A stretch of DNA of 64,000 nt from Humisphaera borealis (GTDB lineage Bacteria > Planctomycetota > Phycisphaerae > Tepidisphaerales > Tepidisphaeraceae), in contig NZ_CP063458.1 in the NCBI RefSeq assembly GCF_015169395.1, forward strand, positions 5,704,001 to 5,768,000, read 5' to 3'. Shown one piece after another: positions 20,280-56,614 of the stretch (position 1 is the stretch's first letter; each line of letters starts with the position of its first letter). The notes below the pieces were generated by a model. It saw only the letters and a list, made by a program, of their open reading frames with translations, ran no database searches and was not told the origin of the DNA. Position numbers and translations under genes: made by a program.

Positions 20280-20291
20280 CTCGAAGAGAGT

Positions 20292-20472
20292 GAACCACAG
20301 ATGCGCACAGATGGGCACAGATAAGATGCAGGCCATCACAACGAATGGCACGCTCTTTCGTGTGTCTTTTCATACACGCGCCATTGAGAAGGCTTTTCGG
20401 CACGCGGGCAGGTTCTGCCAGAACTATCGCCTTCAAGTCTTATCTGTGCCCATCTGTGTGCATCTGTGGTTC
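20292..20472. repeat. 35-bp inverted repeat with CACAGAT iterations
   Basis: Arms 20292-20326 and 20438-20472 are reverse complements with one mismatch, separated by about 110 bases. Each arm contains several CACAGAT or ATCTGTG words. It lies between the convergent queG and the exported helical protein gene. The loop has no evident gene. Confidence 0.85.
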
Positions 20473-20518
20473 ATCCCGGACTGCGCCGTTGGTCGCGACA
20501 TCGGCATCATCTGCACGC

Positions 20519-26976: not shown

Positions 26977-27082
26977 GGCACGAAGAGCACGAAGGCCACG
27001 AAGAAGCATCAGGAAATGACGGCACCCACAAAAAGGTAGTTCCGTTTCTGCCTCTTCTTCGTGACCTTCGTGGCTTCGTGCC
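26977..27082. repeat. Inverted repeat with CACGAAG words (family also at 45.5 kb)
   Basis: Left arm 26977-27006 and right arm 27054-27082 are near-perfect reverse complements with one base of offset. Each contains CACGAAG three times. The same words build the repeat at 45508-45657. It lies between nuoB and a small membrane-protein gene. Confidence 0.85.
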
Positions 27083-28156: not shown

Positions 28157-28325
28157 ACCACCCGCTACGCGACGACACCTCGAACGCCCGCGAAAGCAAC
28201 GATGCTTCCGCGGGCGTTTGCACAGGGTGGGATAGCTCCGACGCCGCAAAAAAACCACCACGGAGTTCATCACCAGGCCTCTGGCCGCTCTCCGAGGCGA
28301 TGAACCTTCGTACCGCGCCAGGCTT

Positions 28326-28401
28326 GAACGCCAAGGCGCCGAGACGCCAAGAGTTGTCTTGCCTCGGATTGCGTCCTTGGCGTCTCGGCGTCTTGGCGTT
28401 C
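28326..28401. repeat. 26-bp inverted repeat (GCCAAG/GACGCC type)
   Basis: Arms 28326-28351 and 28376-28401 are reverse complements with a single mismatch and a 24-base loop. Each repeats GACGCC and GCCAAG words. It is in the gene-free stretch 28157-28565. Confidence 0.85.
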
Positions 28402-28565
28402 ATCGCGTCTGTTTTCGGAGTACGTCCAGTCCGAGGGGCACATGCCCCAAACCGGGCTGCCCACCTCAGGTATTCGCCCCGACAGCCAATGCACCTCATG
28501 TTTCTCCCAGCGGATGACAGCGTGTTGTACCGCCTGCTCGTCAGACCCCTTTTGGGAGACCACCC

Positions 28566-29825
28566 ATGTTCGAAACCCTCGAAAACCGCAAGCTTTTCGC
28601 CGTCACCGCGTCGGCGTTCCACGACACCCTGTACGTCTGGGGCGACAACAACCAGAACGGGCTCAGCGTCGAGAAGCAGGGCACCGATCTGGTCGTGAAG
28701 AAGTACGTCGGCGGCGGGCATGCTGGTTACGAAGAATTCTTCCGCGTCGCCGCAAGCGATGTCAGCTACATCCGCATGTACGGCTACGACGGCGCCGACA
28801 CCATGACCGTCGCCGACAACGTCACCGAAGAAGCCACCCTCATGGGCGGCAAGGGCGGCGACTACCTCAAAGGCGGCGGGGGCATGAGCTATCTGTGGGG
28901 CCACGGCAACTTTGCCGGCGACCCCAACCACGGCCCGACATCCGATGACAGCGCCGCCGACATCCTCGTGAGTGGCAAGGGCTACGCCGTCCATTACGGC
29001 CAGAAGGGCAACGACAGCTTCTACACCGACAACACCGCCGGCAGCGGCTACGACGTGATGAACGGCGGCGACGGCAACGACAACTTCAACATCTCCGGCA
29101 GCGGCAACACCGCCTACGCGTTCGGCGAAGCCGGCAACGACACCTTCACCGCCACCCAGGCCGCCACCCAGAACGCCAGCTTCTACGGCGGCGCGGGCTA
29201 CGACACGGTGGACTACAGCGCCTGGACCAGTGCCGTCTACGTTAGCCCCAACGGCACCGACTACAGCGGCCTGCGCTACGGCACCCGCCGGCACGTCATC
29301 CAGTCCGACGTCGAAGCCGTCAAGGGCGGCAGCGCCGGCGACTACTTCAATGGCTCCAGCGGCAACAACACCTTCTACGGGAACGCCGGCAACGACACGA
29401 TGTACGGCAACGCCGGGGCCGACATCCTGCTCGGCGGAGCCGGCAACGACTCACTCTACGGCGGCAGCGGCAACGACTTCGTCAACGGCGAAGCCGGCAA
29501 TGACACCCTCTACGGTGACAGCGGCGACGACGACCTGTTCGGCGGCACCGGCCAGGACGACATGCACGGCGGCTCCGGCAACGACGACCTCTATGGCGAA
29601 GCCGACAGCGACTGGCTCTACGGCGACAGCGGCAACGACACCCTCGTCGGCGGCACCGGCGCCGACTACCTCGTCAGCCACGACGGCGTCTTCGGCAACG
29701 ACATCATCTTCGGCGACAACAAGGACGGCACCGGCGCAGGTTCCGGCGTCTGGGACGTCGCCTACATCGACAGCGGCTGGCCGTTGCCCGACTTCACCTT
29801 CGGCGTCGAGAGCATCAGCTTCTAG
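28566..29825 (+). CDS. Secreted Gly/Asp-rich calcium-binding-like repeat protein
   Basis: The protein begins MFETLENRKLFAV, a short motif (LExRxLF type) that sits at the N-terminus of many large planctomycete surface proteins and may act as an export or sorting signal. The body is built of nonapeptide-like repeats resembling RTX (GG-x-G-N-D-x-L/F-x): MNGGDGNDNF, YGNAGNDTMYGNAG, LLGGAGNDSLYGGSGND, dense at about residues 240-390. Such repeats bind calcium. The last part, WPLPDFTFGVESISF, has no C-terminal anchor. It would be extracellular or surface-bound; the function is unknown. Confidence 0.85.
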   Translation: MFETLENRKLFAVTASAFHDTLYVWGDNNQNGLSVEKQGTDLVVKKYVGGGHAGYEEFFRVAASDVSYIRMYGYDGADTMTVADNVTEEATLMGGKGGDYLKGGGGMSYLWGHGNFAGDPNHGPTSDDSAADILVSGKGYAVHYGQKGNDSFYTDNTAGSGYDVMNGGDGNDNFNISGSGNTAYAFGEAGNDTFTATQAATQNASFYGGAGYDTVDYSAWTSAVYVSPNGTDYSGLRYGTRRHVIQSDVEAVKGGSAGDYFNGSSGNNTFYGNAGNDTMYGNAGADILLGGAGNDSLYGGSGNDFVNGEAGNDTLYGDSGDDDLFGGTGQDDMHGGSGNDDLYGEADSDWLYGDSGNDTLVGGTGADYLVSHDGVFGNDIIFGDNKDGTGAGSGVWDVAYIDSGWPLPDFTFGVESISF

Positions 29826-29831
29826 CATTTT

Positions 29832-29887
29832 TTGTGGTGCGGGCTTCAGCCTGCACCGAAATGTGCAGGCTGAAGCCCGCACCACAA
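29832..29887. repeat. Perfect 24-bp inverted repeat directly after the repeat-protein gene
   Basis: Arms 29832-29855 and 29864-29887 match exactly, with only an eight-base loop. It starts seven bases after the stop codon. The T run lies before the hairpin rather than after it, so it is not a canonical intrinsic terminator. Confidence 0.85.
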
Positions 29888-30004: not shown

Positions 30005-31024
30005 TCACGCCTTCGGCGGTTCCTTCGCCTTGAGCCAGGGCATCATCTTCCGCAGTTTGCGGCCGGTGACTTCGACGGGGTGGGTGTTGTCGGCTTCGTA
30101 CAGCCGCTTGAAGTTCTTCATGCCGGTTTCGTACTCGGTCCGCCAGCCCTTGGCGAACGTGCCGTTCTGGATCTCGGTCAGCACCTTTTTCATCTCCGCC
30201 TTGGTCTGGTCGGTGATGATGCGCGGGCCGGTGATCAGATCGCCCCACTCGGCGGTGTTGCTGATGCTGTACCGCATGTAATCCAGGCCGCCCTGGTAAA
30301 TCAGGTCGACGATCAGCTTCACTTCATGGACGCACTCGAAGTACGCCATCTCCGGCGGGTAGCCGGCTTCGGTGAGGGTCTCGAAGCCCGCCTTGATGAG
30401 GGCCGAGAGGCCGCCGCACAGGACGACCTGTTCGCCGAAGAGGTCGGTTTCGCACTCGTCTTTGAAGGTGGTTTCGATGATGCCCGAGCGGGCGCCGCCG
30501 ACACCGTTGGCCCAGGCCAGGCCGGTGGCGCGGGCGTTGCCGGTGGGGTCCTGGTGGACGGCCAGCAGGCAGGGGACGCCGCCGCCTTTTTCGAACTCCG
30601 ACCGCACCAGGTGTCCCGGGCCCTTGGGGGCGACGAGGATCACGTCGACATCGGTCGGCGGGGTGATGGTCTTGAAGTGGACGTTAAAGCCGTGGGTGAC
30701 GCCGAGCGTCTTGCCCGCCTTGAGGTGCGGGGCGATCGACTTGTTGTAGACCTCGGGCTGGACTTCGTCGGGCAGGGTGATGATCGCCAGGTCGGCGGCT
30801 TTGACGGCGTCTTCGACGCTCATCGGGTCGAAGCCCTTTTCGATCGCGAGCCGGCCGTTGGCCGAGTCGCGGCGATTGGCGACGATCACCTTCAGGCCGC
30901 TGTCGCGCATGTTCTGGGCGTGGGCATGGCCCTGCGACCCGAAACCGAGAATCGCGATCGTCTTGCCCTTAAGGCCGTCGATCGGGGCGTCCTGTTCATA
31001 AACCATCTTGAGGGGTTCTGGCAT
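30005..31024 (-). CDS. ilvC: Ketol-acid reductoisomerase (NADP+)
   Basis: This is the second common step of branched-chain amino acid synthesis, the isomerisation and reduction of acetolactate. It is a class I enzyme of 339 residues. The Rossmann part shows AILGFGSQGHAHAQNMRDSG, followed by RRDSANGR whose R/S pattern points to NADPH. The Mg-binding and substrate region follows with DLFGEQVVLCGGLSAL and AYFECVHEVKLIVDLIY. ATG 31024 has GGAGGAA upstream. No other ilv genes are next to it. Confidence 0.97.
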   Translation of the reverse strand: MPEPLKMVYEQDAPIDGLKGKTIAILGFGSQGHAHAQNMRDSGLKVIVANRRDSANGRLAIEKGFDPMSVEDAVKAADLAIITLPDEVQPEVYNKSIAPHLKAGKTLGVTHGFNVHFKTITPPTDVDVILVAPKGPGHLVRSEFEKGGGVPCLLAVHQDPTGNARATGLAWANGVGGARSGIIETTFKDECETDLFGEQVVLCGGLSALIKAGFETLTEAGYPPEMAYFECVHEVKLIVDLIYQGGLDYMRYSISNTAEWGDLITGPRIITDQTKAEMKKVLTEIQNGTFAKGWRTEYETGMKNFKRLYEADNTHPVEVTGRKLRKMMPWLKAKEPPKA

Positions 31025-31154
31025 CGGAAAGTTCCTCCAGACCGGCGAACCCTCCGAAGCCGTCGGAAATCGTCGCTGCGGTCGAATAGCACTGGAAAAA
31101 TCGAGTCGAGCAGTCTAAACGCCGGGGGAGTGGGTGTCAAAAGAGCGGAGTAGA

Positions 31155-31248
31155 CAGTAGTCAGTAGTCAGTAGTCGGAAGGCGGAAAAGAACCGTGGCG
31201 TGAAATCGAAGCGGCACCTGCGTCCTGACTACTGACTACTGACTACTG
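31155..31248. repeat. 22-bp inverted repeat made of CAGTAGT iterations
   Basis: Arms 31155-31176 and 31227-31248 are exact reverse complements. Each arm is three tandem copies of the seven-base word CAGTAGT (or its complement). It lies just upstream of the ilvC promoter region. Tandem and palindromic order together are unusual. Confidence 0.88.
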
Positions 31249-32205: not shown

Positions 32206-33759
32206 ATGGATTATGTCATCGGAATTCTGATCGGATTGATCGTCGGAGCGGCGGGTGTCGCCGCATATCTCAAGTTCGCCGGCAATAGCGCCCTGCAGCG
32301 CGCCCGCGAGGAAGGGGAAAAGCTCAAGGCCGAATCGGTTCGCGACGCCCAGGCCAAGGCGAAGGAAATCGAACTCAACGCCAAGCAGGAACAGATCAAG
32401 CTCAAGCAGCAGTTCGACCGCGACCACGAGTCGGCCCGCCGCAAGCTCGAAGAACACGAAAGCCGCCTGAACAAGCGCGAAGACGTGCTCGACAAAAAGC
32501 TCGACACCCTCACCAGCAAGGAACGCCAGCTCGACGACCTGGAACGTAAAGTCTCCAACCGCGACAAGGCCCTGGCGATCAAAGAACAGGACATGGAAAA
32601 GGTGCTGAAGGAGCAGCGCGACCGGCTGCTGCAGATCAGCGGCATGAGCTACGACCAGGCAAAGGAGCTGATGCTCCGCCGACTTGAAGACGAATGCCGC
32701 GCCGAGGCCGGCGAGATCATCACCAAGATCACCGAAGAAACGCAGGAACAGGCCAAGGACAAGAGCCGGCAGATCATCCTGCAGGCGATCCAGCGCTACG
32801 CCGCCGAACAGACTGCCGACCACACCGTCAGCAGCGTGCAGATCCCCAGCGACGACATGAAGGGTCGCGTCATCGGGCGTGAGGGGCGCAACATCCGCGC
32901 GTTCGAGAAGACGACCGGCGTCGATGTGATCATCGACGATACGCCGGGCATCGTGGTGGTTAGCTGCTTCGACCCCGTTCGGCGTGAAGTAGCTCGCATC
33001 TCATTGGAACGGCTTGTGCAGGACGGCCGAATCCACCCGACGCGCATCGAAGAAATCCACGCCCAGGCGAGCAAGGAGATGGAGGACGAACTGCTGAAGA
33101 CCGGCCGCGAGGCGGTCCAGGAAGTGCAGTTGCCCGGCGTGAACAAGGGCATCATCCCGATGGTCGGCCGATTGGCCTACCGCACGAGCTACGGCCAGAA
33201 CGTGCTGCGGCACAGCGTGGAAGTGGCATACCTCTGCCAGGTCATCGCCGATGAGCTGGGCCTGGACGGCAACCTCGCCCGCCGTTGCGGCATGTTCCAC
33301 GACATTGGCAAGGCGATGGACCACGAAGTCGAAGGCGGCCACCCGCAGATCGGCATGGAGTTCCTGCGGAAGTTTAACGAGCCCGAAGCGGTGCTGAACG
33401 CCGCGTTGGCCCACCACGGCGACGTCCCCGCGACGACGCCGTACACGGTGATCGTGATGGCGGCCGACGCGATCAGCGCCGCCCGCCCCGGCGCCCGCCG
33501 CGAAAGCCTGGAGCGTTACATCAAGCGCCTGCGCGAGCTGGAAGACGCCGCGATGACCTTCGACGGCGTCCGCCAGGCGTACGCGATCCAGGCCGGCCGC
33601 GAGGTGCGGGTGATCGTCGACGCCAAGATGATCGACGACAAAGGCAGCGCCAAAGTCGCGCGGGATATCGCCAAGAAGATCGAGAACGAGATGCAGTACC
33701 CCGGCGAGATCAAGGTGACCGTGCTGCGTGAACTGCGGACGGTGGAATACGCGCGGTAG
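32206..33759 (+). CDS. rny: Ribonuclease Y
   Basis: This is a membrane-anchored endoribonuclease that starts bulk mRNA decay. The N-terminal helix ([21 protein letters not shown]) is followed by a long coiled coil (about residues 30-150, [20 protein letters not shown]). A KH domain comes next with [20 protein letters not shown], then the HD domain, with [19 protein letters not shown] as the metal-binding signature. Length 517 fits the family. It is preceded by a spacer with no clear gene and followed by an inverted repeat. Confidence 0.97.
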
Positions 33760-33817
33760 GGTCCGCCTTGGCGGACGCGGGGCTGCGGCCGGGGGAACCG
33801 CGTCGCTCCGAATGCAA

Positions 33818-33906
33818 AATGCAAAACGTGCAATGAAAAATGCAAAATGACCGGAGGCTTTGATTGCCTTCTGCCATTTTGCACTTTTCATTGCATGTTT
33901 TGCATT
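33818..33906. repeat. 32-bp inverted repeat with TGCAAAA words
   Basis: Arms 33818-33849 and 33875-33906 are reverse complements with two mismatches. Each contains repeated ATGCAAAA. It lies between rny and the DinB-like gene, whose longer frame starts inside the right arm. Confidence 0.85.
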
Positions 33907-33962
33907 CTGTATTCAATTCGGCGGATCACGCCGCGCCCAAGAACGAAAGCTACAACGCCATT

Positions 33963-45256: not shown

Positions 45257-45507
45257 GATGAGATTCCTCGTCTGGGCTTGAAAGGACTTGCAGTGGTGGG
45301 GCGACCGCGTCGCCCGGGGCTAAACTCTCAGGCGGGCGACGCAAATGCACCGCTCGCCGTGAGCCTCGTTAACACGGTGTATCCCATGAATTGCCCGGAC
45401 GCAAGCCGAGTGGCCCCGGCCTTACAGAATGCGAAACTTATGGGACCCCGTGAAATCCAACGCCCTGAACGACTCTGACCACGCCGATGGGAAGCCGCTT
45501 GAAGTCC

Positions 45508-45657
45508 GATTTCAACACGAAGGGCACGAAGAGCACAAAGGGCACGAAGAAGACAAATAATGTGCCGTTTTCGACGGCTGCTCTGCTTAACAGTTGTTTC
45601 TTCGTATCCCGTCTTTCTTCGTGACATTCCTGGCTTCGTGCTCTTCGTGTTGAAATC
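45508..45657. repeat. 47-bp inverted repeat with CACGAAG words
   Basis: Arms 45508-45554 and 45611-45657 are imperfect reverse complements. They share the CACGAAG words seen at 26977-27082, so this is a second copy of one family. A lone, degenerate half-arm (GTGCC...CTTCGTGTTCTC) is visible at about 44104-44146. It is in the gene-free spacer 45257-45742. Confidence 0.8.
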
Positions 45658-45742
45658 GACTACCTGAGCGATTCGATCGGCGGATCCATCGGCGTGTCTT
45701 GCCCGTGCTGCACGTCATCGACAAATCGACCGGAGATACGGC

Positions 45743-55567: not shown

Positions 55568-56557
55568 ATGCAATCGTTCGAAACAGCGTTCGACCCGTCG
55601 TGCGGGGCGGCAACGATCGCGACGCCCGTTGCGGCGGCTGCCGATGGCTGCACTGCCGATGCGCCTCGGCGGACGCGGGCCGAGCAATCGCGGATCAACG
55701 GCGCCAAGTCGCGCGGGCCGACGACCGACGCCGGTAAATCGGTCGCGGCGCAGAATGCCTGGAAGCACGGTTTACGCGCCCGAGGGCAGTTGCTCCCGGA
55801 TGAAGACCCCGCGGTGTTCGACGCGTTTGTCGCGTCGTTTCGCGACGATCTGCAAGCCGTCGGCCCGTGCCAGGTGATGCTCGCCGAGCGCGTCGCGGAA
55901 ATGGCGTGGAAGCTTCAACGCATGCCGGTCGTGCGGTCGGCGGTGCTCTGCTCGCGGCGCGACAAGAAGTGCGCCGACGACGGCGGGTTCGGCGGAATGG
56001 ACACCCTCGGCGACGTCATCTTCGAACTGCAACGGGCCGACGCCAACGGCGGGATCGTCATGCTGCTGCAACGGTACGAAGCCCAGATCGAGCGGTCGAT
56101 GCAGGCGGCGCTGCGCGAGCTGCGGATTCTGCAAGGCGGAACGCGCAACCGTGGAGCCCTGCATGGGCAGAATGATCCGACGGCAGACGGAGTGCCAGGC
56201 GTGACGACGGCGACAGAACCTGCGCCGGCGACCGCCCGATCCGTCGACCCGGTGCCGGGTGACCGGGAAGATCCGTCGGCGGCTGAATCTCGGGTTCGTT
56301 TGGCGGAATCGCACGGGGTCGCGACCGCGGCCGTCGATCCAGACGCTTCCGTCGATTCCGTTCCCTCCGTCGTCGCCGGAGTTGCAACGCTTGTAAACCC
56401 AGTCGCGCCGACCGGTTCGGCGACCTTCCACCCCGACGACCTGCTGCCGGCGGATGCCGGTTCTCGGGTTCGTTCGGCGGAAGGGTTGCGCGGCCGGACG
56501 GCTCCGGTTCGGTGCGACCACTACGGCAAGGGACGCTCCGCTGCGCGTCGCGGCTAA
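55568..56557 (+). CDS. Planctomycete-type protein of unknown function (SRINGAKSRGP family)
   Basis: The protein has RAEQSRINGAKSRGPTTDAG, then AAQNAWKHGLRARGQLLPDEDP, a phrase shared by a large family found in planctomycetes and some Acidobacteria whose role is unknown. The VGPCQVMLAERVAEMAWKLQRM segment (part quoted) is also typical. The rest is low-complexity Ala/Asp/Val. The stop codon and last residues (GRSAARRG) are encoded by the left arm of an inverted repeat, so the gene end may have been set by repeat insertion. ATG 55568 gives 329 residues. Confidence 0.75.
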   Translation: MQSFETAFDPSCGAATIATPVAAAADGCTADAPRRTRAEQSRINGAKSRGPTTDAGKSVAAQNAWKHGLRARGQLLPDEDPAVFDAFVASFRDDLQAVGPCQVMLAERVAEMAWKLQRMPVVRSAVLCSRRDKKCADDGGFGGMDTLGDVIFELQRADANGGIVMLLQRYEAQIERSMQAALRELRILQGGTRNRGALHGQNDPTADGVPGVTTATEPAPATARSVDPVPGDREDPSAAESRVRLAESHGVATAAVDPDASVDSVPSVVAGVATLVNPVAPTGSATFHPDDLLPADAGSRVRSAEGLRGRTAPVRCDHYGKGRSAARRG

Positions 56558-56614
56558 CCGTTCCATCGCGACGCTAAACAGAGCAATCGGTTAGCCGCGA
56601 CGCGAAGCGGAGCG
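56534..56614. repeat. 27-bp inverted repeat overlapping a gene end
   Basis: Arms 56534-56560 and 56588-56614 are reverse complements with one mismatch. The left arm contains the last codons and TAA stop of the preceding gene, so it may have inserted into it. Confidence 0.85.

Follow-up and report, generated by a model that had tools for sequence, protein, structure and literature searches.

Inverted AGTAGTC arrays in Humisphaera borealis and a possible relation to S23 genes and rRNA intervening sequences

The palindrome between ilvC and rny

The stretch of Humisphaera borealis DNA analysed here, 64,000 nucleotides in length and referred to as the window, is part of a 7.19-Mb contig and contains a palindrome of seven-base words in the intergenic gap between ilvC and rny, where no rRNA gene is located. 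The features of interest, with positions counted from the first base of the window, are as follows.

30005..31024, minus strand: ilvC, ketol-acid reductoisomerase, left neighbour
31112..31140, minus strand: sigma70-type promoter of ilvC, TTGACA-17-TAGACT (from the motif and comparison with a same-genus genome)
31149..31176, plus strand: left arm, AGTAGAC AGTAGTC AGTAGTC AGTAGTC from outer to inner (from the sequence)
31177..31226, strand not applicable: 50-nt loop separating the arms (from the sequence and comparison with the loops of other copies)
31227..31248, minus strand: right arm, three AGTAGTC words in inverted orientation (31155-31176 is its exact reverse complement)
32206..33759, plus strand: rny, RNase Y, right neighbour, 958 nt away
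33810..33914: second heptamer-type hairpin, word ATGCAAA/ATGAAAA (arms 33810-33849 and 33875-33914)

A preliminary description of this site had reported 22-base arms that are both exact reverse complements and tandem seven-base repeats, and direct reading of the sequence confirmed this. The motif (CAGTAGT)x3 occupies positions 31155-31175 and (ACTACTG)x3 positions 31228-31248; the exact inverted repeat of 22 nt (31155-31176 and 31227-31248) encloses a 50-nt spacer, and an imperfect fourth word, AGTAGAC, carries the left arm out to 31149. Two consecutive CAGTAGT words, with at most one mismatch, were found at one location in the window as compared to 0.00 expected from 100 dinucleotide shuffles, and folding of the palindrome strand gave a z score of -6.2. 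The palindrome is real, its coordinates and structure are correct, and an origin by chance is excluded. Its terminal inverted repeats form a long stem that starts about 8 bp upstream of the -35 box of ilvC, which places the element outside the ilvC transcript. The promoter is also recognisable upstream of ilvC in a same-genus genome, and the element is missing from the orthologous site in that genome.

Heptamer hairpins in the Humisphaera borealis genome

AGTAGTC arrays were located at about 20 places in a search of the genome itself. Reading of 18 further stretches and parsing of their words yielded a set of 17 inverted pairs, all 17 with the same polarity, (AGTAGTC)n - loop - (GACTACT)n; each arm holds 2-14 words, and the loops measure 18-73 nt. 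The arms are often unequal in length and include variant words such as AGTGGTC, AGTCGTC and GGTAGTC. The preliminary description had proposed that slippage and inversion together underlie the growth of the palindrome, and had named a fixed copy number and a single site as observations that would speak against it; what we found was a variable number of words at many sites, with dozens more in other genomes. Slippage is further indicated by runs in which an identical variant word is repeated in one arm but not in the other (14 vs 4 words, L035). Joint growth of the arms was not upheld, as the mirror order of variant words, or paired changes expected under mutual correction of the arms, was not significant (p = 0.12 and 0.08). 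Within this genome, the loops of different copies, that of the window copy included, showed no similarity to one another.

The copies are intergenic, some within operons such as rpsN-rpsH and coxB-coxA, and the arrays are frequently situated 2-15 nt from stop or start codons, as judged from heuristic gene limits. In one case, the stop codon TAA of coxB falls inside the first word of the array. Relatives contain unrelated sequence in the rpsN-rpsH and coxB-coxA gaps, and the element is missing at the orthologous coxB-coxA site of the same-genus genome. The rpsN-rpsH gap is 100 nt here and 16-97 nt in relatives; in the relative G006 (L211) it contains another inverted repeat (GCCAATT.. / AATTGGA..). 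Outside the arrays of this genome, the search for a conserved target revealed just a weak preference for G at the last two outer positions, and no target-site duplication was apparent at the array edges, for which there was no near-identical empty site for comparison.

Could the hairpin be a functional RNA kept by selection, such as a terminator, an mRNA stabiliser or an RNase III site? The stable fold and the intergenic position, often within operons, are compatible with such a role, and RNase III is known to cut the stems of rRNA intervening sequences (IVSs) (PMC4990558). However, the window copy is upstream of the promoter of ilvC, terminating copies in rpsN-rpsH and coxB-coxA would break essential operons, and selection on the stem is not reflected in significant paired changes between the arms or in arms of equal length. 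We consider this explanation unlikely, and a terminator or a known RNA family was rejected since no terminator-like site (a GC-rich stem followed by a T run) was identified at the window element and no Rfam match was obtained above the cut-off.

We also examined the broader repertoire of hairpins in a sample of 1.26 Mb of this genome along with a Markov control. The sample contained 233 hairpins with a score of at least 16 and the control contained none. Among tandem arrays the dominant period was 7 (33 vs 0 in the control), followed by its multiple 14 and by 15. Arms with period 7 were present in 29 of the 233 hairpins, with words such as AGTAGTC, AGTANGC, AATGACG and AAGGATG, and the polarity was constant within each word (50 similar arm pairs in the same and 0 in the opposite orientation, among 32 period-7 hairpins). 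The period-7 hairpins had a median residual spacer of 26 nt and the remaining hairpins one of 85 nt (p = 8e-5), with similar total gap lengths of 141 nt and 131 nt, respectively.

Being tandem, dispersed, intergenic and variable in number, the 7-nt words resemble STRR-type repeats. An ordinary STRR-like heptamer satellite would arise by slippage in place within neutral spacers, template switching would produce the palindrome, and any link to S23 genes would be incidental. The dominance of period 7 is in line with this explanation, as are the filling of gaps of ordinary length by the period-7 hairpins, the range of rpsN-rpsH gap lengths in relatives and the other inverted repeat in one of them. 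However, an origin in place does not produce one word at 20 sites with a single polarity.

Besides the heptamers, this genome contains many hairpin families with words of 8 to 10 nt, including CACGAAGG, CGCCAAGA and CACAGATGCG. Inverted repeats of these families are located in the window at 20291-20473, 26988-27072, 28325-28402, 29832-29887, 45507-45658 and 56534-56614, and relatives of those at 29832 and 56534 flank Y1 genes. An ORF at 28566-29825 contains many GGxGxD-like nonapeptide repeats that by eye are of the RTX calcium-binding type.

The genome contains 11 Y1 genes and also REP-like hairpins of several families. These, together with the inverted intergenic pairs and the sequence GTAG within the word, raise the question of whether the palindrome is a REPIN-like element mobilised by a Y1 (RAYT) transposase. 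Inverted repeats flank 9 of the 11 Y1 genes, but most of these are from the REP-like families, and no heptamer array is located within 1.5 kb of any of the 11. Moreover, the arms are period-7 arrays rather than small palindromes tagged with GTAG. This explanation is very improbable, and mobilisation by RAYT was rejected because no Y1 gene is linked to heptamer arrays. At the Y1 loci L147, L149, L150, L152, L153 and others, separate REP-like palindrome families each flank their own Y1 gene, which gives this single genome a rich collection of REP/RAYT pairs.

Distribution, dispersal and loop inversion in other genomes

Among 60 relatives, the array was present in only five others. A screen of 392 genomes of the same phylum identified the exact forward pattern in this genome only and the reverse order, with opposite polarity, in none. 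The exact hairpin pattern matched 42 genomic stretches from GTDB, the majority of them from Chloroflexota, Planctomycetota and Acidobacteria, with Geminisphaera (Verrucomicrobia), Desulfobacterota and Desulfotruncus as further hosts. The polarity of the arm pairs in other genomes was likewise uniform (79 vs 0), and the double word gave 155 matches in one Anaerolineae genome. A hairpin of this type was also seen in a record titled Klebsiella pneumoniae MAG (L115), a label that may be wrong.

In two related Chloroflexota genomes, G445 and G446, a 61-nt core consisting of a 47-nt loop with one word on each side yielded 5 and 7 matches. Full-length copies of this element are 75-90% alike and their flanks are unrelated, except for one orthologous pair. 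Since the 47-nt loop is common to copies at unrelated sites, the element has spread as a unit in these genomes; with the unlike loops in Humisphaera borealis, such unit-wise spread is demonstrated in Chloroflexota only. Neither the loops common to unrelated sites nor the presence of the same hairpin in several phyla is explained by a heptamer satellite.

We compared five orthologous sites in G445 and G446, with identities of 92-94%. At two of the five sites the loop was inverted, in both cases in metagenome assemblies and with arms of about 28 nt, which is below the usual assembly k-mers. In the pair L250/L257 the loop is inverted between conserved flanks (score 27 inverted and 8 direct), and the two copies further differ by one word in one of their arms, another sign of slippage. 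For L258/L260, the inverted alignment had 76/96 identities and the direct alignment 60/94, with a centre score of 10 vs -11 and a shuffled maximum of -3. The other three sites contained the same element with an unchanged number of words (L247/L248), a changed outer arm (L121/L119) and a composite difference (L254/L251). Inversion as proposed in the preliminary description is thereby supported in the form of loops that have flipped within their arms in orthologous copies, and not as a demonstrated maker of the palindrome. The AGTAGTC element in L254 has an enlarged loop, owing to an insert whose inverted arms, each about 26 nt, match perfectly.

S23 genes and the nature of the element

S23 is the four-helix-bundle protein of 23S rRNA IVSs. 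A search for genes between hairpins identified an S23 gene between two AGTAGTC hairpins in L104 (Planctomycetaceae) and L132 (Anaerolineales) and a decayed S23 gene (PF05635) in the same setting in L251 (Chloroflexi), amounting to three loci in two phyla, all initially chosen for their hairpins. The gene is located between two whole hairpins at these loci and between two arms elsewhere; the 50-nt loop of the window copy contains no S23 (PF05635) ORF. The collected loci, 1.26 Mb of this genome and 800 kb of an Anaerolineales genome were also searched with an S23 profile. This yielded two more S23 genes, which had not been selected for repeats; each lay between heptamer arrays that were inverted relative to each other and made up of other words. 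In Humisphaera borealis the profile search covered 1.26 Mb, about 20% of the genome, and detected no S23 gene there.

S23 relatives were also gathered by protein alone, from IMG/VR (19 loci) and from plasmids (32 records, 14 of which were read). Adding the two genes from the profile search and removing duplicates and cut genes resulted in a dataset of 31 S23 genes. A best flank period of 7 was obtained for 26 of the 31 genes and for 59 of the 557 control stretches (Fisher 3.5e-19). Mutual inversion of the flanks reached p <= 0.005 in 21 of the 31 genes and p <= 0.05 in 24. The median inverted-flank score was 23 for the S23 genes, and mismatched pairs and a set of 80 further ORFs from these loci both had a median of 9; no ORF in that set exceeded the 99th percentile. 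Most S23 genes had words other than AGTAGTC and 7 of the 31 were without significant inverted flanks; L356 lacks heptamers, and those of L357 and L363 are direct, not inverted. S23 genes from many lineages are linked to inverted heptamer arrays to an extent that far exceeds the controls, against the expectation of an incidental association, and we regard the satellite explanation as rather doubtful.

The inverted heptamer arrays with an S23 gene appear to constitute a wider class that is assembled from the same parts as the 23S rRNA IVSs. Like the IVSs with an S23p ORF in Coxiella and Leptospira (PMC4990558), the hairpins have inverted repeats and a long stem, with an ORF in between in the full form, and are sporadic and horizontally spread. 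The Coxiella IVS also has tandem heptamers of variable number adjoining the ORF, two or three before the S23 ORF depending on the strain (PMC4990558). According to the same paper, IVSs had earlier been proposed to be transposition remnants, or mobile elements in which the ORF serves mobility. Unlike the IVSs, the heptamer hairpins are located outside rRNA in intergenic regions, in tens of copies per genome and with heptamers in both arms, and the window copy has no ORF.

Parallels also exist to the cyanobacterial STRRs and the TAACTGA repeats of Beggiatoaceae (PMC4679880), which as described there are intergenic 7-nt words that change in length by whole units and occur in scattered phyla, and to the P6b stem of the Nostoc trnL intron, which in the account of PMC4476775 is formed by two complementary heptamer arms. 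Unlike the AGTAGTC pairs, the TAACTGA arrays are almost all direct, with 169 direct sets and one indirect repeat (PMC4679880), and the passages on heptamer repeats in these two papers contain no S23 link or loop inversion. A text search for AGTAGTC in papers, with most subscription journals outside its range, returned nothing relevant, and an earlier report of S23 with heptamers may exist. REPIN/RAYT systems (BIME, REP) are similar in being short dispersed intergenic inverted pairs and non-autonomous kin of a gene-carrying element, but here the arms have no GTAG-tagged palindrome, no Y1 gene is linked, and the candidate partner is S23. MITEs share the terminal inverted repeats without an ORF and the many copies, but not the arms, which here consist of tandem words and vary in length; we saw no target-site duplication and found no matching transposase.

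Our preferred reading, to which we assign a probability of roughly 0.55, is that the window palindrome is an ORF-less member of a dispersed heptamer-hairpin element of the IVS/S23 type, in which slippage alters the words and the loop can invert. The interpretation in the preliminary description is partly supported; the dispersed family and the link to S23 genes were absent from it. To our knowledge, the function and mode of movement of S23 proteins and rRNA IVSs are not known, and descriptions of bacterial heptamer repeats have treated them as isolated curiosities. Should S23 genes prove to lie regularly between inverted heptamer arrays, with the ORF-less hairpins derived from them, three puzzles would merge into one element class, and the mover would become testable as S23 plus a hairpin substrate.

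For such an IVS/S23-type element, slippage by 7 nt would lengthen and shorten the arms, which may pair and allow the loop to flip via recombination or template switching between them. We infer that S23 drives the movement of the hairpins, with the machinery of the S23 element presumably acting on hairpin RNA or single-stranded DNA to move copies. The window copy probably has no host function and may be tolerated because it is outside genes and outside the ilvC transcript. More tentatively, heptamer hairpins with S23 may represent a widespread class of small mobile elements, of which the rRNA IVSs are the case that landed in rRNA. S23 would bind the hairpin and promote its copying, a reverse transcriptase perhaps acting in trans, the ORF-less hairpins would ride along and the loop would invert; the retro-copy route is put forward as a proposal only.

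In diversity-generating retroelements, a reverse transcriptase works together with the accessory protein Avd, and S23 is distantly similar to the Pfam family bAvd (down to E = 4e-9, below the family cut-off). S23 also matches the solved entries 2gsc and 2rld, the former of which is the pentameric Xanthomonas S23p (PMC4990558). Several of the plasmid S23 genes sit between related genes, such as nrdB-nrdA, cas6-cas4 and cmr2-cmr3. In the cyanobacterial plasmids L357, L358 and L361, S23 genes with heptamer or purine-rich flanks are located between CRISPR genes (cas6-cas4, cmr2-cmr3).
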